Shown here piece after piece: positions 19,914-29,276 of a stretch of 64,000 bases of DNA (its first letter is position 1; each line of letters opens with the position of its first letter). Location: the NCBI RefSeq assembly GCF_017349315.1, contig NZ_JAFMPP010000006.1, forward strand, positions 124,001-188,000. The letters are read 5' to 3'. Origin of the DNA: Jiella flava. GTDB taxonomy: Bacteria > Pseudomonadota > Alphaproteobacteria > Rhizobiales > Rhizobiaceae. The position numbers and the translations under genes are program-made. The notes beneath the pieces were generated by a model that ran no database searches, had not been told where the DNA came from, and saw nothing but the letters and a program-made list of their open reading frames with translations.

Positions 19914-20525
19914 TCACCCGGGATAGATCCATTGCTCGGGAACGCGCGCTTCGAAGCGCTCATTGGCCGCGATCACGCCGGGTTTTTCCACCCAGGCGAC
20001 GAGGCCGCGGCGGTGCTTGGCCGCCTTGACGAAGCCAAGCTCGACATCGGTGCCGCCGCCGGCCTGATCTGCGATCGCGCGGCCGGCATAACGGCACGGG
20101 TTGTTATGGCCGTCGATCTTCAGCGTCACGCCGTTTTCGAAAAAGAGCAGCGTGCGGGGCGGCAGGAACGACAGCTGCGGAATGCCGTCGACCAGAAGAT
20201 TGCCGCCGATCCATTCGGGGCGGATCTCTGCGATCCCAAGCTCCGCCGCGACCGCCGCCAGCTCATCGGGCGCAAGCAGCGAGAGCTGGCGCTCGTTGCG
20301 CATCTCCGTGTCGCGCTCGTACCAGGGCTCGCGCCCGCCGCTGCGCCGGGTCATCCCGCCGTGGCGATCGCCGGCGATCCCGCCAAAGCCGAGCTCCAGT
20401 GTTTCGACGGCGGTCGTCTCGAAGCCATCCGCAAGGGTGCGGTAAAGGCCGAGCACCCGTCCTTCGATTCGCGTCCCGCGAACAACCTGCGGCGACGAAA
20501 AGATCGGCAGCTCCGTCTGGCGCAT
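19914..20525 (-). CDS. MOSC-domain protein
   Basis: The 203-residue protein matches the MOSC (Mo-cofactor sulfurase C-terminal) domain. Signature elements include GDRHGGMTRRSGGREPWY, WIGGNLLVDGIP and the conserved cysteine in GHNNPCRYAGR, which in the family carries the persulfide/sulfur. MOSC proteins bind molybdenum cofactor and deliver sulfur to it. AAGGGAAG precedes the ATG. It lies 0.9 kb from the XdhC/CoxDE-like cluster on the same strand, separated only by dedA. This suggests, but does not prove, a related job in Mo-hydroxylase maturation. Confidence 0.9.
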   Translation of the reverse strand: MRQTELPIFSSPQVVRGTRIEGRVLGLYRTLADGFETTAVETLELGFGGIAGDRHGGMTRRSGGREPWYERDTEMRNERQLSLLAPDELAAVAAELGIAEIRPEWIGGNLLVDGIPQLSFLPPRTLLFFENGVTLKIDGHNNPCRYAGRAIADQAGGGTDVELGFVKAAKHRRGLVAWVEKPGVIAANERFEARVPEQWIYPG

Positions 20526-20609
20526 GGTCTTCCCTTCGATCGGTTGGTGATTGCAGCTTAAATTGTCGCCGATTTCCGGATTTACGACAAGCGAACTCCC
20601 CTTCGGGCA

Positions 20610-21248
20610 TCAGTGCTCGCCGTCGTTGGCGGCTTGGCGCTCATTCTGAAGCTTGCCGGTGTCGAAGGTGACGATGCGATAGATGTAGAAGACGACGATC
20701 GCGACGATCACCGCATTCGACACGGGGCCGACATAGCCCTCGACCACCTCATATTGCTGGCCGAGCAGAAATCCGAGCATGGCCAGAAATGCGGTCCAGA
20801 TCGCGCCGCCGATCGCCGAATAGACCAGAAACCGCCCCATCGGCATATGGGCGATGCCGGCCGGCACCGAAATCAGCGTGCGCACGGTCGGCACCAGGCG
20901 GCCGATGAGCACGGCAAAGGCGCCCTTATCGCGAAACCACTGATCCGCCTTCGTCACGTCCGACGGCGCCAGCGTCAGCCAGCGTCCGTAGCGCGCGGCC
21001 AGCCGCTTCATCCGCCGTTCGCCGAGATAGCGGCCGGCATAGTACCAGGGGATGACACCGAGCAGCGAGCCGATGGTGCCAGAGGCGATCACCGCGACAA
21101 TCGACATGTCGCCTCGCGTCGACTGATAGCCGGCGAGCGGCATGATCAGCTCCGAGGGGATCGGCGGAAAAATGTTTTCCAAGAACATCAACAGGCCGAT
21201 ACCGAACACGCCGAACGTCTCCATGACCATGCGGACGAATGCGTCCAT
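20610..21248 (-). CDS. DedA-family membrane protein
   Basis: The 212-residue SNARE-associated/VTT-fold membrane protein carries FLENIFPPIPSELIMPLAG near the N-terminus and the GRLVPTVRTLISVPAGIAHMPMGRFL block, both hallmark DedA motifs. It has four to five hydrophobic helices. Members act as phospholipid flippases (undecaprenyl phosphate or others) at the inner membrane. AGAGG lies 4-5 bases before the ATG at 21248. Just upstream of the start are three 15-base tandem repeats. Confidence 0.93.
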   Translation of the reverse strand: MDAFVRMVMETFGVFGIGLLMFLENIFPPIPSELIMPLAGYQSTRGDMSIVAVIASGTIGSLLGVIPWYYAGRYLGERRMKRLAARYGRWLTLAPSDVTKADQWFRDKGAFAVLIGRLVPTVRTLISVPAGIAHMPMGRFLVYSAIGGAIWTAFLAMLGFLLGQQYEVVEGYVGPVSNAVIVAIVVFYIYRIVTFDTGKLQNERQAANDGEH

Positions 21249-21390: not shown

Positions 21391-23025
21391 TCACGCGCCC
21401 TTCGTCGACTCGATCTGCAGCCGCCCGCCCGCCGCATGGAGTGCATCGGGCGTGTCGACATCGACGCTCGCGGCCGCGCCGATCTCGACCTCGATCAACG
21501 CCTCGGGATGGGCAGCGATGATCCGCGCCGCACCGACATCACCGGACAATGCGGCGATCGCGGCGGCAAACGCCGTCGAAAGAATCACCGGATTGCGACG
21601 CTCGCCGCGATCGGCTGCGGCGACGATCGCTCCTTTGCCTTCGCCGGTGAAGGCGGCAATCAAGCGATCGAGATCCGGCGCGCTGAGCAAGGGTTGGTCG
21701 GCCAGCATGACGAGCACGCCGTCGGCGTCGTGCGAAGCCAGAAATCCCGCCTTCAGCGACGTCGAAAGACCGGCGGCGAAGTCGGGGTTGTCGACGATCT
21801 CGACGTCGAGCCCCGCCAGCGCCGCGACAATCTCGTCGCGCATATGTCCGACGACGACACGCACGCCCTCGGCGTTCTTCGCCGCCAGCGCGGTTTCGAC
21901 CGAGCGGCGGATCAGCGGCTGTCCGTCAAAGGTCGCCAGCAGCTTGTTCGGCCCGCCCATGCGGCTCGAACGGCCGGCCGCCAGCACGATGATCTCGACG
22001 CTCGGCTCTTCTGGCCGCGCGTCCCCCTCCTCCGCCTCGCGCGGGCGCGGGCGCGAGGCGATCTCCATCAGCAGCCCCCCGACCCCCATCTTGCGGATCG
22101 CCTCGCTCGAGACCTCAAGGCCGGCCAAGAGACGATCGAGCACCCAGTCGAAGCCGTTCTCCTTCGGACTGCGGGCGCAGCCCGGCGCGCCAAGCACCGG
22201 GCGACCGTCAAGCCGACCGATGAGCAGGAGATTGCCGGGATCGACCGGCATTCCCAGATGATCGACCGTACCGCCTGCCTTCCGGATCGCCGCCGGAACG
22301 ACATCGTCCGCATCGATCACGGCAGAGGCGCCGAAGACCAGGACGAGATCAGCCTCGGCGGCCTCGGAAAGGCTCGCCGCCAGCGCTAAGGTGTCATGGG
22401 GACAGCGCATCTCCGAAACGATCCGAGACCCCGCGGACGCCAGGCGCGCGTCGCTGACACGGCGGGTCTTGTCGAGCATTTTCGGCTGGGTGCCGGCAAG
22501 CGTCGTCTGGATCAACGCCACCCGCCGCGCCTGGAACGGCGCGAGCCGCATCGCCACTGTCTCATTGAGGATTGCAATCGCAGCAGCCACCGACGATCCC
22601 GCCACCGCAAGCGGAATGATCTTCACCGTCGCGACCATGCGGCCACGGGCGACGGGCGCAAATTCTGCAAGGGTGGCGAGCGTGATCGCCGGATCGACGG
22701 CATTTACCCGATCGATCGTCTCGCGGTGAGGCAGAAGCAGTCCCGGCGCGTCGGCAAACAGGTTCACGCGTCCTGTCGCCGCCTCGGATGCGGTGAGATG
22801 CGAGGTCTTGAGCGCCGCGCCGATCAGGGCGGCCGCTTCATCCTCGGTCAGGTCTTCGTCATCCAGCCGCGCGGCCACCACCTCTTCGATGCCAGCGCGG
22901 CTCAATGCGGCGACATCGTCTTTCGACAAGCGCGTTCCCTTGGCGATCCGGCCATGCGCAACGGTTTGAGAATGGGCGAGCAGCGCCCCTTCCGCCTCGC
23001 TGGCGGGAACCGGGCCAAACTTCAT
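21391..23025 (-). CDS. Fusion: MoeA-like molybdopterin-binding domain + MocA-like NTP transferase
   Basis: The protein has 544 residues in two parts. Residues about 1-330 resemble the molybdopterin-binding (MoCF/MoeA) fold, with ATVKIIPLAVAG, LVLVFGASAVIDADDVVPAAI and LGAPGCARSPKENGFDW. Residues about 345-530 are a nucleotidyltransferase of the MobA/MocA type: IIVLAAGRSSRMGGPNKLL (NTP loop) and LVMLADQPLLSAPDLDRLI. MocA enzymes add CMP to molybdopterin to form the dinucleotide used by xanthine-dehydrogenase-type enzymes. Its start overlaps the stop of the XdhC gene (ATGA), so the two are coupled. Confidence 0.88.
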   Translation of the reverse strand: MKFGPVPASEAEGALLAHSQTVAHGRIAKGTRLSKDDVAALSRAGIEEVVAARLDDEDLTEDEAAALIGAALKTSHLTASEAATGRVNLFADAPGLLLPHRETIDRVNAVDPAITLATLAEFAPVARGRMVATVKIIPLAVAGSSVAAAIAILNETVAMRLAPFQARRVALIQTTLAGTQPKMLDKTRRVSDARLASAGSRIVSEMRCPHDTLALAASLSEAAEADLVLVFGASAVIDADDVVPAAIRKAGGTVDHLGMPVDPGNLLLIGRLDGRPVLGAPGCARSPKENGFDWVLDRLLAGLEVSSEAIRKMGVGGLLMEIASRPRPREAEEGDARPEEPSVEIIVLAAGRSSRMGGPNKLLATFDGQPLIRRSVETALAAKNAEGVRVVVGHMRDEIVAALAGLDVEIVDNPDFAAGLSTSLKAGFLASHDADGVLVMLADQPLLSAPDLDRLIAAFTGEGKGAIVAAADRGERRNPVILSTAFAAAIAALSGDVGAARIIAAHPEALIEVEIGAAASVDVDTPDALHAAGGRLQIESTKGA

Positions 23026-23738
23026 GCCGCCTCGGTCTCGCCGCGCCGCTCGGCGAACATCTTGCGCTTGCGGAAGGCTTCGATGACGGAGGCGAGAATG
23101 GCAACGGCGATCTCACCCGGATTCGCCGCCCCGATATCGGCCCCGATCGGCGCCTCGATACGCGCGATCGCGGCGGGGGAAAGGCCCGCCTCGGTCAGGC
23201 GCTCGACCCGCTTGGCGTGGGTCTTCCGGCTGCCGAGCGCGCCGACATAGAAGCACCCGGTCTTCAGCGCCGCGATCAGCGGAAAATCGTCGATCTTCGG
23301 ATCGTGGGTGATGACGCAGACCGCCGTGTAGGGATCGAATGGCCGCTCCTTCAGAACGTCCTCAGGCCATGTAGCGTGCAGGGCGACGTTCGGAAAACGC
23401 TCGGCGCTGGCGAAGGCCGTTCGCGGATCGATGATTTCGATGTCGAAGCCGGCGATCTTGGCCATCGGCGCCAGCGCCTGGCTGATATGGACGGCCCCGA
23501 TGGCGACGATCCGCGCCGGCGGCAGGTGCACATTGAGAAACACCTCGCCATCGTCGGTTTCAACGATGCCCGACTTGCCGCTGCGGATGGTCTTTTCGAT
23601 CGCCTCGGACAGCGGGTCGGCCGTGATCTCGGCCTCGCGCACCAAACGCTGCGTTCCCGACGCGATCTTTGTTACCACCACGGCGGCGCGGCGCTGAGCG
23701 CGCTCGCCATTCAAGGCTTCAAGAAGAGCCCGGTCCAT
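23022..23738 (-). CDS. XdhC-family protein, Rossmann-domain part
   Basis: The 238-residue protein has the XdhC C-terminal Rossmann domain: IVAIGAVHISQALAPMAKIAGF, VIDPRTAF-like FDIEIIDPRTAF, VCVITHDPKID and YVGALGSRKTHAKR. XdhC binds molybdenum cofactor, supports its sulfuration and inserts it into Mo-hydroxylases. The expected N-terminal CoxI/XdhC domain is encoded separately by the next gene upstream, whose stop overlaps this ATG by one base (TGATG). The gene is translationally coupled on both sides. Confidence 0.92.
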   Translation of the reverse strand: MDRALLEALNGERAQRRAAVVVTKIASGTQRLVREAEITADPLSEAIEKTIRSGKSGIVETDDGEVFLNVHLPPARIVAIGAVHISQALAPMAKIAGFDIEIIDPRTAFASAERFPNVALHATWPEDVLKERPFDPYTAVCVITHDPKIDDFPLIAALKTGCFYVGALGSRKTHAKRVERLTEAGLSPAAIARIEAPIGADIGAANPGEIAVAILASVIEAFRKRKMFAERRGETEAA

Positions 23739-24070
23739 CAGTTCACCTTCTCGACATAGACCCGGATCCGGCCGCCGCAGGACAGACCCACCCGCCAGGC
23801 CGTTTCGTCGGCGACGCCGAATTCGAGCATCTTGGCCACGCCGGCATCGATGACATCGAGCGCCTCGGAGACGACCGCGCCCTCGACGCAGCCGCCAGAG
23901 ACCGACCCCTCAAAATTGCCATCAGCGTCGATGACGAGATGGCTGCCGGTCGGCCGCGGCGCCGATCCCCAGGTCTCGACCACGGTCGCGAGAGCAATCG
24001 CGCGGCCCTCCCCCGCCCAGCGTTCCGCCGTCGTCAAGACGTCGAGATTTTGCACATTCGGTTCGGCCAT
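23738..24070 (-). CDS. XdhC/CoxF N-terminal-domain protein
   Basis: This 110-residue protein consists only of the XdhC_CoxI N-terminal domain: ATVVETWGSAPRPTGSHLVID, GSVSGGCVEGAVVSEALDVI and LSCGGRIRVYVE, including the conserved Gly-Gly-Cys. It works with the Rossmann-part gene immediately downstream, so the pair equals one full XdhC. The ATG at 24070 has GAGGACAGG upstream. It is separated from the VWA gene by 210 bases. Confidence 0.9.
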   Translation of the reverse strand: MAEPNVQNLDVLTTAERWAGEGRAIALATVVETWGSAPRPTGSHLVIDADGNFEGSVSGGCVEGAVVSEALDVIDAGVAKMLEFGVADETAWRVGLSCGGRIRVYVEKVN

Positions 24071-24280
24071 CGTCCTGTCCTCAAATTGCTGGCGCTCGAA
24101 ATCCGACCTTTCGAAAGGGGCTCGATCAGGCGCTCTCTTGCCGATCCGAACGGATGCTCCGATCACAGTGGGAGGCGCAATCGGCTCGGCCGACGCAGAT
24201 CAAATCGCCAGCGCCCGTCGCCAGCCTCAAATTTCAATCGCCATCGATATGTCGCGCCTCGGCTGGCCCTCGGCAAGGGC

Positions 24281-25570
24281 TCAGGCCGCGACGTCCAGAC
24301 GGTCCTCGCGCAGCCACAGTCTGGGATCGGTCTCGGCTGCCCGCCGGCTGTCCGACAGCGCATCGCAGAGCGCCCGCATCGCGTCGAGCGAATGGACCGA
24401 GCGAAACTCGTCGACATGCGGCAGCATCGCCCGCACGCCGCGCGCCTTGGCGGAAAACCCGTCATAGCGCAGCAGCGGATTGAGCCAGATCAGCCGGCGG
24501 CAGGACTTGTGCAGCCGTTCCATCTGCCGCTCCAGATCCTCGACGCTGTCGCGCTCCAGCCCGTCGGTGATCAGGATGGCGATCGCGCCCTGCCCCAGCA
24601 CCCGCCGCGACCAGTCGCGGTTGAAGCTTTGCAGCGCCTCGGCGATGCGGGTGCCGCCCGACCAGTCCTTGACCGCACCGGCGCATTCCTCCAGCGCCTC
24701 GTCGGGATCCTTGCGGCGCATCTGCCGGGTGACGTTGGTGAGCCGCGTGCCGAAAAGAAAGGTATGAACCCGCCGCCGCTCACCGGTCAGCGCATGCAGG
24801 AAGTGGAGAAAAATCCGCGTATACTGACTCATCGACCCGGAGATGTCGGCGATGACGACGACCGGCGGATGGCGACTGCGCAGCGACGAAAATTTCGGCA
24901 GGACGAGATCCCCGCCGGTGCGCATCGAGGCCCGCATGGTGGCGCGCGCGTCGATCTTCGCCCCGCGTGGATCCGGCCGAAAACGCCGGGTCTTCACCGC
25001 ATCGTCCGGCAGCCGCAGCGCAGCGATGGCACGCTTGGCCTCGGCGAGCTCCGCAACCGACATCTGGGCGAAATCCTTGCGCCGAAGCACCTCATCGCCG
25101 GAAACGGTGAGGCTCGCATCGATCTCGACCACCGGCCGATCCTGCCTGGTCGTACGCTTTTCCGCGCCCTCGAACAGACCTTCGGCAGCGCGATCCTCGC
25201 CGGCACGTTTCTTCTCCGGCTCACTCTCGCGTGGCGGCGCGGTCGGAGAAAACATTGCGATCATCTTTTCGATCAGCTCGCGCGAGCGCCAGAACAGCCG
25301 AAAAGCTTCGGCGAAGACCGCCTCGTCCTCGCGGCGCGACACCAGCGTGGCATGAAGCGTCCAGTAGAAATCGTCGCGCGAGGACAGCCCCGCCGCCTTC
25401 ACCGCCTCGATCGCATCGAGGGTTGCGGCCGGGCCGATCTTCAAGCCCGCCCGGCGCAGCGCCCGCGCGAAATAGGCGATGTTGTCGGCAAGCCGGCCGT
25501 CTGGGTCGGCGCGGGTCGAGCCGGCCCGTTCGCCAGAGACTCTTGGCTCAGCTGGCGGTGTTGAGTTCAC
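24281..25570 (-). CDS. CoxE-like VWA-domain protein
   Basis: The 429-residue protein has an N-terminal helical part with IAYFARALRRAGLKIGP, a charged middle (about residues 110-150), and a C-terminal VWA/CoxE domain. The MIDAS motif is DISGSMS and the distal ITDGLERDS aspartate is present. In CO dehydrogenase clusters CoxE acts with the AAA+ ATPase CoxD to assemble the Cu-S-Mo site. The GTG at 25570 has GAGG upstream and overlaps the ATPase gene by 23 bases. Confidence 0.9.
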   Translation of the reverse strand: MNSTPPAEPRVSGERAGSTRADPDGRLADNIAYFARALRRAGLKIGPAATLDAIEAVKAAGLSSRDDFYWTLHATLVSRREDEAVFAEAFRLFWRSRELIEKMIAMFSPTAPPRESEPEKKRAGEDRAAEGLFEGAEKRTTRQDRPVVEIDASLTVSGDEVLRRKDFAQMSVAELAEAKRAIAALRLPDDAVKTRRFRPDPRGAKIDARATMRASMRTGGDLVLPKFSSLRSRHPPVVVIADISGSMSQYTRIFLHFLHALTGERRRVHTFLFGTRLTNVTRQMRRKDPDEALEECAGAVKDWSGGTRIAEALQSFNRDWSRRVLGQGAIAILITDGLERDSVEDLERQMERLHKSCRRLIWLNPLLRYDGFSAKARGVRAMLPHVDEFRSVHSLDAMRALCDALSDSRRAAETDPRLWLREDRLDVAA

Positions 25571-26462
25571 GCTTGACCTCGTCGAGGATCTTGCGGCTCT
25601 CGCCGGTCTCCAGACGTTGGATGTCGTCCTGATATTTCAGCAAGACGCCGAGCGTGTCGGAGATATGGGCCGGATCGAGCGCGACGGCGTTCAACTCGGT
25701 CAAGGCATTCGCCCAGTCGATGGTCTCGGCGACCCCCGGGGCCTTGAACAGATCAATCTGCCGGAGTTTCTGGACGAAGGCGACGAGTTCGGCGGCAAGA
25801 TCTTCGTTGGCACGCGGTGCCTTGCGCCGGACGATTTTCAATTCGCGCTCGGCCGCCGGATAGTCGACCCAGTGATAGAGGCAGCGGCGCTTCAACGCGT
25901 CGTGGATCTCGCGCGTCCGATTGGTGGTGATAATGACGATCGGCGGCTCCTCGGCACGGATCGTGCCAAGCTCCGGGATCGTCACCTGATTGTCGGAGAG
26001 AATTTCCAGCAGGAACGCCTCGAAGGCCTCGTCGGTGCGGTCGAGTTCGTCGATCAGAAGCACCGGCGCCCGGCCCGGCGCCGCCTCCAGCGCCTGCAGG
26101 ATCGGCCGGCGGATCAAAAAGCGCTCGGAAAAGATTTCCGATCGCATGGCGTCGCGCGCCGTGTCGCCGCTCGCTTCGGCGAGGCGGATCTCGATCATCT
26201 GCGCGGCGTAGTTCCACTCATAGAGCGCTGAAGAAACATCGAGCCCTTCGTAGCACTGCAGGCGGATCAGCGGTCGGTCGAGGGCGGTGGCGAGCACCTT
26301 GGCGATTTCGGTCTTGCCGACCCCGGCCTCGCCTTCGAGAAACAGCGGGCGGCCCATCGTCAAGGCCAGAAACAGCACCGTGGCGAGCGGCCGATCGGCC
26401 AGATAGTCGGCCCGATCCAGCATCGCCGCCGTCTCGTCGATCGAGGCGGGAAAATTCGTCAC
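25548..26462 (-). CDS. MoxR-family AAA+ ATPase (CoxD-like)
   Basis: The 304-residue AAA+ ATPase has Walker A GEAGVGKTE, Walker B VLLIDELDRTD, sensor 1 in IIITTNRTRE (VIITTNRT) and an arginine finger in ALKRRCLYHWVDYP. The MoxR group acts as chaperone with VWA partners, and it is encoded directly before, and overlapping, such a partner. The start was set at GTG 26462 because AAGGA lies 8 bases upstream; the longer frame to 26531 lacks a site. It is the first gene of the maturation cluster. Confidence 0.93.
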   Translation of the reverse strand: MTNFPASIDETAAMLDRADYLADRPLATVLFLALTMGRPLFLEGEAGVGKTEIAKVLATALDRPLIRLQCYEGLDVSSALYEWNYAAQMIEIRLAEASGDTARDAMRSEIFSERFLIRRPILQALEAAPGRAPVLLIDELDRTDEAFEAFLLEILSDNQVTIPELGTIRAEEPPIVIITTNRTREIHDALKRRCLYHWVDYPAAERELKIVRRKAPRANEDLAAELVAFVQKLRQIDLFKAPGVAETIDWANALTELNAVALDPAHISDTLGVLLKYQDDIQRLETGESRKILDEVKRELNTAS

Positions 26463-26505: not shown

Positions 26506-27024
26506 TTAAGTCTTGAGGCCGCGAAATCCACGATTGGCGTAGAGGAGCGGCTCGGTCGCCGGGCCCATCGTGATTGCCGCGACTTCGCCGATCATCACCT
26601 TGTGAGTGGCGATGACGCGGGCCTCGATCAGCCGACATTCGAAACTGACCAACGCCGTCTCCAGCAGTGGCGCGCCGGTTGCGCCGCGCCTCCAGCGACC
26701 ATGGGCGAACCGCTCATCCTGCGACAGCTTCCCCTCGCCGGCGAAGGCTCGGGCCAGCGGCTGATCAGCCTCGGCCAGAACGTTGATCGCAAAGACGGCG
26801 TTTTCCTCGAACCAGCTGTTGTCGGGGCTCGACAGGTTCAGGCAAACGAGCAGAGTCGCCGGATCATCCGAAACCGAACAGGCCGAAGACACGGTCACGC
26901 CGCGCCGCCCCGATTGGCCATCCGTCGTCACCACGAGAACCGATGCGGCAAAGCGTGTCATGGCTTCGCGAAACGCGCCGGGATCTGTCTGCATCGTAGT
27001 CAGCAACCGTTCATCCTCGTCCAT
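26506..27024 (-). CDS. Flavin reductase-like domain protein
   Basis: The 172-residue flavin-binding split-barrel protein has FREAMTRFAASVLVVTTDG, GVTVSSACSVSDDPATLLVCLN and FAINVLAEADQPLARAFAG, typical of the HpaC/NtaB group. It supplies reduced FMN or FAD to a two-component monooxygenase. No monooxygenase is adjacent. The start at 27024 (MDEDERLL) has only a weak ribosome site, so the N-terminus is less certain. It lies 43 bases upstream of the MoxR gene on the same strand. Confidence 0.88.
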   Translation of the reverse strand: MDEDERLLTTMQTDPGAFREAMTRFAASVLVVTTDGQSGRRGVTVSSACSVSDDPATLLVCLNLSSPDNSWFEENAVFAINVLAEADQPLARAFAGEGKLSQDERFAHGRWRRGATGAPLLETALVSFECRLIEARVIATHKVMIGEVAAITMGPATEPLLYANRGFRGLKT

Positions 27025-27169
27025 TACCCAACGTGATATCAACAAATTCGCGGACCGCGGCCCGAACATCCCCCAAAGTCCCTGGCCAGAATCGCGAAGT
27101 CGCCCGTCGCCAAACTGCCACGGCGCGCCGGCGATTTCCAATCGGCGGTGAACCGGCTATGACGACGCC

Positions 27170-28255
27170 ATGCGCCGTCTCGCTTTCGTTGCCGCCATCA
27201 TTCTCGCCGCCGTCCCCGCCATCGCCCAAAATCGTGGCGGGACGGTGAGAATCGGCGTCATCGCACCGCGAAGTGGAGCGCAAGCCATTCTCGGCAAGCA
27301 GGTGATCGACGGGGCCAAGGCCGCCCTGGCGACAAAGGCGGGCGCGGCGACGATCGTCGAAGCCGACACCCAATGCTCGGCCAAGGGCGGTGAGGCCGCC
27401 GCGCGCGAACTCGTCAAAGCGAAGGCGACGATTGCGCTCGGCTTTCTCTGCACCCCCGCGATCGAAGCCGCGCTGCCGGTGTTGAAGCAAGCCGGTATCG
27501 TCACGCTCGATGTCGGTGTGAGGGCCAACCGGCTGACCGACAAGAAAGTCCGGACCGGCGATCTCATCTATCGCCTTGCGCCGCGCTCGGGCGCGGCGGC
27601 CGCCGCGATTACGCGCTTCATCGAGGCGCGCTGGGCTGATCAGCCCTTCGGCCTCATCGACGACGGGTCGATCGCCTCGCGCGGCCTGTCGGACTCCGTG
27701 CGCCGCCGCCTCGGCGACGACGGGCTGAAGCCGCAGACCGTCGACAATTATCGCCCGGCCGAGGAAAAACAGTTCGGTCTGGCGCGCCGCCTGCAGCGCA
27801 CCGGCGTCACCCGTTTCTTCATCGCCGGCGACCGGCCGGACATCGCGATCATCGCCCGGGACGCCAAGGCGCTCGGCCTCGACCTGACGATTCTCGGCGA
27901 CGAGAATCTCTTCGACGAGGCCAGCGTCGACACGCCGCTCCCGGCCGGGATCATCGCGATCGGCCCGAAGACCAGCTTCCCAGAGCTGGCGCCGAAGGGC
28001 ACCGACCTGTCCGTCCCCGGCTCTCTGCCGCCGCAGGGTTATTTCGGCACCGCCTATGCCGCGATGGAGGTCGCCCTCGAAGCGAGCGCAAAAGCCGGCG
28101 CCAGCAAGCGATCGATCCTCACCATCCTCGCCTCGCAGCCCTTCGACACCGGCCTCGGCGCTATCCGTTTCGACGGCAAAGGGGACAGCGATCTCGACCT
28201 CTTCCGCGTCTTCGAATGGCAGGGCGAAAAATTCGTCGAAGAGACCGGAGGCTGA
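27170..28255 (+). CDS. Periplasmic substrate-binding protein, branched-chain amino-acid type
   Basis: The 361-residue protein has a signal peptide (RRLAFVAAIILAAVPAIAQ) and the type I periplasmic binding fold: VRIGVIAPRSGAQAILGKQVIDGAKAAL, LTILGDENLFDEA and GYFGTAYAAMEVALEA. It should bind a small solute for ABC import, but no permease or ATPase gene is adjacent. It may act with a remote transporter or as a sensor partner. Seven bases separate it from the P1 peptidase gene, suggesting an operon. Confidence 0.85.
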   Translation: MRRLAFVAAIILAAVPAIAQNRGGTVRIGVIAPRSGAQAILGKQVIDGAKAALATKAGAATIVEADTQCSAKGGEAAARELVKAKATIALGFLCTPAIEAALPVLKQAGIVTLDVGVRANRLTDKKVRTGDLIYRLAPRSGAAAAAITRFIEARWADQPFGLIDDGSIASRGLSDSVRRRLGDDGLKPQTVDNYRPAEEKQFGLARRLQRTGVTRFFIAGDRPDIAIIARDAKALGLDLTILGDENLFDEASVDTPLPAGIIAIGPKTSFPELAPKGTDLSVPGSLPPQGYFGTAYAAMEVALEASAKAGASKRSILTILASQPFDTGLGAIRFDGKGDSDLDLFRVFEWQGEKFVEETGG

Positions 28256-28262
28256 GGCGTTG

Positions 28263-29276
28263 ATGGCCTGGCGCCCCGGCCCACGCAATCGGATTACCGA
28301 CGTTGCCGGCGTCACCGTTGGCAATGCCGGCGATTCGAAATTGAAGAGCGGGAGCACCGTGCTCCTGCTCGATGAGGCCGCGCCCGCCTCCGTCGCGGTT
28401 CTCGGCGGCGCCCCCGGGACACGGGAAAGCGATCTTTTATCGCCGGAAAACACCGTCGCCGGCATCGATGCCCTGGTCCTGTCCGGCGGGTCGGCCTTCG
28501 GGCTCGACGCGGCGGCCGGCGTGATGGCCTGGCTTGCCGAGCGTGGCCGCGGCTTTGCCGTCGGCGCCGTGCGGGTGCCGATCGTGCCGGCGGCGATCCT
28601 GTTCGATCTCGCCAATGGCGGCGACAAGAGCTGGGGCCGCTATCCGCCCTATCGCGACTTCGGCTTTGCGGCGGCAAATGCGGCGGCGGCTGATTTCGAC
28701 CTCGGCAGTACCGGTGCCGGCCTCGGCTGCACCACCGCGACGCTGAAAGGCGGGCTCGGCTCCGCCTCGGTCCGCCTGGCGAACGGCGTGACGGTCGGCG
28801 CGCTGGTCGCGGTCAATGCCGTCGGTTCGGTCACGCTTGGCAGCAAGCGGCATTTCCGGGCCGCGGCCTTCGAGATGGAGGGCGAATTCGGCGGCCTGGG
28901 CCTGCCAGCCCCGCTGCCGCCGGATGCCGGCCTGCCACGGACCAAATTCGACGCCAAACCCGGCGCAAACACCACCATCGGCATCATCGCCACCGACGCG
29001 GTTCTCGACAAGGCGGCGGCAAAGCGTCTGGCGATTGCCGGCCACGACGGGTTTGCCCGCGCGATCTGGCCTTGCCACACCGACTTTGACGGTGATCTCG
29101 TCTTCGCCGTCGCGACGGGGCGCTCGGGCGTCCAATTCGACCCACGCGGCGGTGGTTCGCTCGAGCTTGGCGCCGCCGCCGCGGCGGTGATGGCTCGCGC
29201 GATCGCCCGGGGCGTCTTTGCCGCCACCGCCGCCGAGGGCGACCTCGTGCCCGCCTGGCAGAGCCTGCCCGCCTGA
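28263..29276 (+). CDS. P1 (DmpA/S58)-family peptidase
   Basis: The 337-residue protein has the family start GPRNRITDVAGVTVGNA, LVLSGGSAFGLDAAAGVMAWL and the autocleavage-site region GAGLGCTTATLKGG. Members are N-terminal-nucleophile hydrolases that self-cleave and release N-terminal D-amino acids, beta-peptides or similar. The nucleophile is inferred to be one of the threonines in GCTTA. GGAGG from the end of the binding-protein gene serves as ribosome site for the ATG at 28263, so the two are probably co-expressed. Confidence 0.88.
   Translation: MAWRPGPRNRITDVAGVTVGNAGDSKLKSGSTVLLLDEAAPASVAVLGGAPGTRESDLLSPENTVAGIDALVLSGGSAFGLDAAAGVMAWLAERGRGFAVGAVRVPIVPAAILFDLANGGDKSWGRYPPYRDFGFAAANAAAADFDLGSTGAGLGCTTATLKGGLGSASVRLANGVTVGALVAVNAVGSVTLGSKRHFRAAAFEMEGEFGGLGLPAPLPPDAGLPRTKFDAKPGANTTIGIIATDAVLDKAAAKRLAIAGHDGFARAIWPCHTDFDGDLVFAVATGRSGVQFDPRGGGSLELGAAAAAVMARAIARGVFAATAAEGDLVPAWQSLPA

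Follow-up and report, generated by a model that had tools for sequence, protein, structure and literature searches.

The window, the whole stretch of 64,000 nucleotides analysed here, belongs to contig C46 of the Jiella flava genome and carries on its minus strand five genes encoding a MoxR ATPase, a VWA protein of the CoxE type, two halves of XdhC and a MoeA-like/MocA-like fusion. The initial annotation had named these products together, and domain searches found every one of them. The five genes and three neighbours are:

21391 to 23025, minus strand: MoeA-like/MocA-like fusion (NTP_transf_3 132 bits, TIGR03310 135.6 bits, MoCF_biosynth 26.5 bits)
23022 to 23738, minus strand: xdhC C half, XdhC Rossmann domain, XdhC_C (PF13478, 132 bits)
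23738 to 24070, minus strand: xdhC N half, XdhC_CoxI domain (PF02625, 89 bits; open frame reaches 24166)
24281 to 25570, minus strand: coxE-like gene for a VWA protein (VWA_CoxE, 249 bits)
25548 to 26462, minus strand: coxD-like gene for a MoxR-type AAA+ ATPase (AAA_5, E 5.5e-13)
26506 to 27060, minus strand: flavin reductase gene preceding coxD (Flavin_Reduct, 125.6 bits; frame extends to 27141)
27170 to 28255, plus strand: divergent periplasmic binding protein gene (Peripla_BP_6, 89.9 bits)
28275 (putative start) to 29276, plus strand: divergent S58 peptidase-family gene (Peptidase_S58, 184.9 bits)

The gene ends had also been described as overlapping, which holds for most junctions: the two xdhC halves overlap in TGATG, the C half and the fusion in ATGA, and the coxD and coxE frames overlap provided that coxE starts at 25570. 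Between coxE and the N half of xdhC, whose likely start within its open frame is the ATG at 24070, there is instead a gap of about 210 bases.

The CoxE protein far exceeds the VWA_CoxE cut-off of 26.4 bits and has its MIDAS as DISGS, placing it in the CoxE (VWA) family, and the XdhC_CoxI and XdhC_C domains are both present, on two genes, as expected of the XdhC family. Scores for the NCBIfam families MadB and MadC stay below the cut-offs (278.3 and 40.2 bits; cut-offs 475 and 600), as do those of the XdhC halves for the xanthine-dehydrogenase XdhC model TIGR02964 (32.1 and 59.6 bits; cut-off 161.6). The best NCBIfam model for the fusion is that of the MocA cytidylyltransferase, TIGR03310; as its score lies below the cut-off of 186.45 bits, we class the protein, provisionally, as MocA-like only. 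MoCF_biosynth falls just short of its cut-off (26.6 bits). In structure comparisons, the solved structures nearest to the C-terminal part of the fusion were MobA/MocA-related and CoxD had weak or general relatives only, a description that also applies to those of the fusion. The Walker A pattern was present in 156 of 156 MoxR homologues from the fetched loci, the MIDAS pattern, as D-x-S-G-S, in 79 of 79 CoxE rows, and the xdhC halves were separate frames in all 134 loci tested. Inspected by eye, the XdhC halves of the window contain none of the RGD, copper-binding and phytase strings named for CoxF in the passages of PMC4240915 cited here; RGD occurs at 6 of the 134 loci.

No molybdenum hydroxylase had been noticed near the cluster, and a genome-wide search for large subunits (PF02738) extended this to the whole of C46, which has none. 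The case named as refuting in the initial annotation, structural genes lying just beyond the window beside another complete maturation set, was thus not found. The genome (49 contigs totalling 4.16 Mb, completeness 99.99%) encodes six large subunits, all on other contigs:

contig C12: xanthine dehydrogenase with its own XdhC
contig C23, about 372-376 kb: coxS-L-M, large subunit with AYRGAGR
contig C23, 437 kb: lone coxL-like gene, AYRGAGR
contig C48: large subunit with medium and small subunit genes
contig C5: PaoC-like large subunit (864 bits; cut-off 1180)
contig C44: IorB-like large subunit

Labels given by eye in this genome (IorB-like, ribose-type ABC transporter, H4MPT C1 genes) are what we take these genes to be. 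The genome has two XdhC proteins, that of the window and that of the xanthine dehydrogenase on C12, and a single CoxE, in the window. Among 11 NTP_transf_3 matches, the fusion is the best by 40 bits and the second best is MobA-like. With these first two scanned against NCBIfam and two more judged by eye (KdsB-like and MurU-like), the genome has one clearly MocA-like protein, that of the window.

The coxSLM genes on C23 have the form II structural order S-L-M and the form II CoxL motif AYRGAGR. The form I motif AYXCSFR is found in neither of the two CoxL-like proteins of C23, and the form I model TIGR02416 gives 673 bits against a cut-off of 991; among solved structures, the best match of the form II CoxL is to form I CODH structures. 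Adjoining coxD and coxE genes, another mark of form II, are missing here, and none of the accessory genes occurs in the 16-kb stretch around coxSLM. Since such adjacency varies within the form II group, the detachment marks a variant. The cluster lies more than 100 kb from both ends of C46, and almost 90 kb of sequence lie between coxSLM and the closer end of C23; the separation is therefore not a contig break. The five helper genes stand alone in the window because the genes of their enzyme sit elsewhere in the genome. The suggestion that the set serves an enzyme encoded at another place is thus supported, with the form II coxSLM on C23 as its main client. We consider it highly probable that a form II coxSLM operon has become divided and that the five genes are its maturation half, in which CoxDE is dedicated to this enzyme and the XdhC/MocA part also serves other Mo-hydroxylases.

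The detached set recurs in named relatives, of which the best 80 of 582 candidate loci, hence near relatives, were compared (Jiella, Aurantimonas, Fulvimarina, Mesorhizobium, Aminobacter, Hoeflea and other genera). All five genes are present in 79 of these best 80 loci, the exception (L035) being a short contig, so the grouping is not due to chance; a decayed remnant is likewise rejected, as the five open frames are kept in the same 79. No match to the structural subunits searched was found in any of these 80 loci, 71 of which extend at least 9 kb to either side of coxE. In Aminobacter carboxidus DSM 1086, the five-gene set lies on 'Contig_1' (locus L071), and the genome paper places the form II coxSLM on contig 7 (PMC7645674). 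The flavin reductase, periplasmic binding protein and S58 peptidase genes accompany the set in 78, 75 and 74 of the best 80 of 582 loci, which would favour recruitment of the set by its present neighbours for a different pathway. Many other detached sets and most joined operons, however, lack these neighbours, and CoxM is present in 77 of the 78 genomes with a window-type CoxE (see below), making such a takeover extremely improbable.

Co-occurrence was profiled in 140 genomes of the order. A window-type CoxE was found in 78 and a form II-type CoxM in 85, with both in 77 and neither in 54 (Fisher p 7e-29, not corrected for kinship); with few exceptions, related bacteria carry both halves or lack both, also when the halves are far apart. 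The E-value limits behind these counts were chosen after inspection of the rows. For CoxE the limit was 1e-90, and 36 rows at 1e-51 to 1e-30 were dropped before counting, so that G038, G042 and G069 count as lacking a window-type CoxE; a fragment in G149 (1e-45) was retained because it adjoins a form II CoxM. For CoxM, eight rows weaker than 1e-66 were dropped and a fragment in G062 was retained. CoxM without a window-type CoxE remained in 8 of the 140 genomes. One of these, G150, has coxD cut by the end of the contig. Only S and M were found in the stretch from G099 and in those from four small genomes of family f4, and the large subunit is 42% identical in G038 and cut, at 46% identity, in G068. 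The stretches examined in these seven exceptions other than G150 contain neither AYRGAGR nor a canonical large subunit. The converse case, CoxE without CoxM, is a genome (G085) that is 84% complete. Of the 85 genomes of the order with a form II-type CoxM, 77 have accessory genes, many of them at a distance from coxL that would put them beyond the reach of a search in its neighbourhood.

We examined 80 CoxE-centred loci, namely those of the 78 genomes of the 140-genome sample plus G019 and G021. A first linkage count over 77 genomes had given 39 within 15 kb and 38 apart; since some of the latter were contig ends, five such loci were set aside in the final sorting, which gave 40 joined to CoxM, 35 apart and 5 at contig ends. 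The order coxS-L-M-D-E-xdhC(N)-xdhC(C)-mocA was read in 27 of the 80 loci, from 12 families; the reading covers the genes searched, and other genes may lie in between. AYRGAGR is present in 36 of the 40 joined loci, the remaining four having no large-subunit gene, or a cut one, in the stretch. Eighteen of the 35 apart loci retain D-E-xdhC-xdhC-mocA as in the window, and 17 have D-E or E without xdhC and mocA.

In an unrooted CoxE tree of 79 of the 80 loci (the G149 fragment was omitted; 74 are labelled), the joined and apart states are explained by three changes. The window falls in a clade of 36 rows (support 99/94) with 33 apart, 3 contig-end and no joined rows, and outside it nearly all rows are joined. 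This strong clustering, like the absence of a kinship correction in the counts, speaks for a reading in which CoxE and form II coxSLM co-occur only through the kinship of the genomes, the halves no longer cooperating. We give that reading hardly any credence, as the halves are retained together despite physical separation (35 of the 80 CoxE-centred loci) and five or more relatives from the family of J. flava lack both while retaining other Mo-hydroxylases. As to how the operon came apart, family f29 holds both arrangements: flavin reductase-SLM-DE-xdhC-xdhC-mocA in G108 and flavin reductase-DE-xdhC-xdhC-mocA in G065, the latter matching the gene order of the window. Loss of coxSLM from between the flavin reductase gene and coxD is the simplest history, though not a proven one.

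Within the family of J. flava, 28 of 36 relatives have a form II CoxM, and all 28 also have a CoxE scoring 191 bits or more. For 27 of them, CoxE and CoxM lie on different contigs or more than 30 kb apart, a few of these separations possibly being contig ends as some contigs are short; in G021 they are joined. Seven of the eight relatives without CoxM have no CoxE above 33 bits, and the eighth, G034, encodes a pair of proteins of the CoxE family (180 and 162 bits) and neither a Mo-hydroxylase nor XdhC. Five of these genomes, G012, G018, G025, G026 and G027, encode 1, 3, 7, 4 and 1 large subunits (per-genome totals) and have neither CoxM nor CoxDE. In the stretches examined, xdhC-xdhC-mocA is retained in G025 and G026, next to IorB-like and Pao-like genes, whereas in G018 the two xdhC halves are present and the fusion is absent. 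Among genomes of other families, G070, G112, G147 and G153 encode 8, 4, 7 and 6 large subunits and a match to the MocA fusion, which in G153 is in two pieces; CoxE (at E 1e-30) and form II CoxM were not found in these four. In G046, G048, G053 and G077, coxSLM, coxDE and xdhC-xdhC-mocA occupy three separate places. CoxDE is thus absent from relatives that have Mo-hydroxylases and no form II CoxM, some of which do retain xdhC-xdhC(-mocA). This pattern points to CoxDE as specific to form II CoxSLM and to XdhC/MocA as common to several enzymes.

These distributions also bear on the possibility that the five genes, CoxDE included, act as a single unit in the maturation of all Mo-hydroxylases of the cell. 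The J. flava genome would agree with this, having only one CoxE and an XdhC gene beside only one of its six large subunits. The five family genomes and the four from outside just described nevertheless maintain their large subunits without CoxE (in the former, nothing above 33 bits), and CoxDE stands apart from xdhC-xdhC-mocA in 17 of the 80 CoxE-centred loci; a single general set is accordingly very unlikely. The initial annotation had allowed for service to several enzymes, and with five of the six large subunits lacking an adjoining XdhC, this fits the xdhC-xdhC-mocA part, which probably serves several J. flava enzymes, as judged from gene counts. Beyond that annotation, the five genes correspond to the 3' part of an operon that has been split, and its CoxDE and XdhC/MocA parts behave as two modules. 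The genes, their order, separation and co-occurrence, and the two modules are direct observations.

The biochemistry, and the action of the two halves upon each other, can be proposed by analogy with known families. The MocA-like part would make the cytosine-dinucleotide form of the molybdenum cofactor, and the two XdhC halves would jointly carry and protect the cofactor and aid its sulfuration. CoxD, as an AAA+ ATPase, and CoxE, as its VWA adaptor, may remodel apo-CoxSLM in trans so that the molybdenum site can be completed. CoxDE would act on the form II enzyme alone, and the XdhC/MocA part also on other Mo-hydroxylases of the cell.

The copper-binding cysteine of form I CoxL is the one in AYXCSFR. 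The MIDAS of CoxE and the Walker A of CoxD are kept although the form II CoxL motif lacks that cysteine, and the near-strict tie of CoxDE to such an enzyme suggests a job that does not need copper. We infer from the motifs that this job on form II may be copper-independent, most simply an ATP-driven opening of the apoenzyme or its sulfuration. As CoxD and CoxE are tied to form II enzymes without the cysteine, one may go further and suppose that they are not copper-loading factors as such and either perform a copper-independent step or equip form II enzymes with an additional ligand or metal. We regard this reading as rather unlikely; if a second ligand or metal were there, form II would represent a new kind of Mo-hydroxylase active site.

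The closest characterized counterpart is found in Oligotropha carboxidovorans, whose form I cox cluster (coxMSL with coxDEFG) has genes for CoxD-like, CoxE-like and XdhC-type proteins following the structural genes in the order seen here. The form I active site contains a Cu-S-Cys link, and mutants indicate a role for these accessory genes in completing the molybdenum site, with sulfuration depending on coxD, and copper on coxE and coxF (PMC4240915). O. carboxidovorans differs in its CoxL motif AYXCSFR with the copper-binding cysteine, in the order M-S-L and in CoxF being one protein of 280 amino acids, whereas J. flava has AYRGAGR, S-L-M, XdhC on two genes, a MocA fusion and a detached set. 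Stand-alone xdhC-mocA pairs, such as that of Arthrobacter nicotinovorans pAO1, are similar in being possibly common to several hydroxylases, which PMC2997495 offers as speculation; J. flava differs in its two-gene XdhC, in the MoeA-like region joined to MocA and in having CoxDE next to these genes.

For form II itself, the function is called unresolved, CO oxidation included, in the relevant passages of PMC13240472 and PMC6794299, and CO oxidation has been disputed partly on account of missing accessory genes (PMC11411561, citing Cunliffe 2011). The sections of the Aminobacter and Foliimonas papers concerned with form II describe it as coxSLM with no mention of accessory genes (PMC7645674, PMC8235418, PMC12582533), and coxD, E and F are named among form II accessory genes in PMC5747140. 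The J. flava system is of a known kind in a detached variant. SAR202 belongs to another phylum than J. flava. In its 'Carboxydicoccus', form II structural genes likewise occur with coxD, coxE and coxF elsewhere in the genome, as reported in PMC11411561, the only source stating this among the portions of the literature compared. According to the same account, form II accessory genes are without consensus order, in contrast to the order prevailing here (27 of the 80 CoxE-centred loci). Detached form II accessory genes had thus already been reported for SAR202, and the present analysis contributes the gene order that prevails in this bacterial order, the near-strict tie of CoxDE to the enzyme even where their loci are separated, the division into two modules and the encoding of XdhC on two genes.

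The maturation set of the window (coxD, coxE, the two xdhC halves and the MoeA-like/MocA-like fusion) has periplasmic binding protein and S58 genes divergent to it at 27170-29276, an arrangement kept in most of 80 loci; the same genes stand upstream of the joined operon, coxSLM-coxDE-xdhC(N)-xdhC(C)-mocA, at locus L179. DedA-like and MOSC genes (19914-21239) come next after the set on the same strand; of 80 loci, 5 have them adjoining the set, as do L214 and L215.

Elsewhere in the Jiella flava genome, a solitary coxL-like gene with AYRGAGR, the form II CoxL motif, was located on contig C23 at 437 kb (L022:8695-11028), and no gene for a small or a medium subunit was recognised next to it; its neighbours we take by eye to be pepN-like and histidine-kinase-like. 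A PaoC-like hydroxylase locus lies on C5 (L024:1475-10668), presumably among H4MPT-linked C1 genes, judging by eye from their resemblance.

Two clusters, L111 (genome G071) and L198 (G148), have the operon order coxS-coxM-coxD-coxE-xdhC-xdhC-mocA, and no large subunit gene was found in their coxS-coxM interval. In family f4 (L210-L213; genome size 1.3-1.4 Mb), the clusters consist of coxS-coxM-xdhC-xdhC-mocA, with coxDE missing and no large subunit within the stretch read.

Within the family of Jiella flava, G034 encodes two CoxE-family proteins (C1:3209580 and C1:3000651), and searches of this genome for Mo-hydroxylases and XdhC gave no match; VWA_CoxE by itself is therefore not diagnostic. 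Another member, G021, carries a joined coxSLM-coxDE locus (L142) with a divergent CoxE, which clusters with family f22 in the CoxE tree, and this locus perhaps represents a horizontal replacement.
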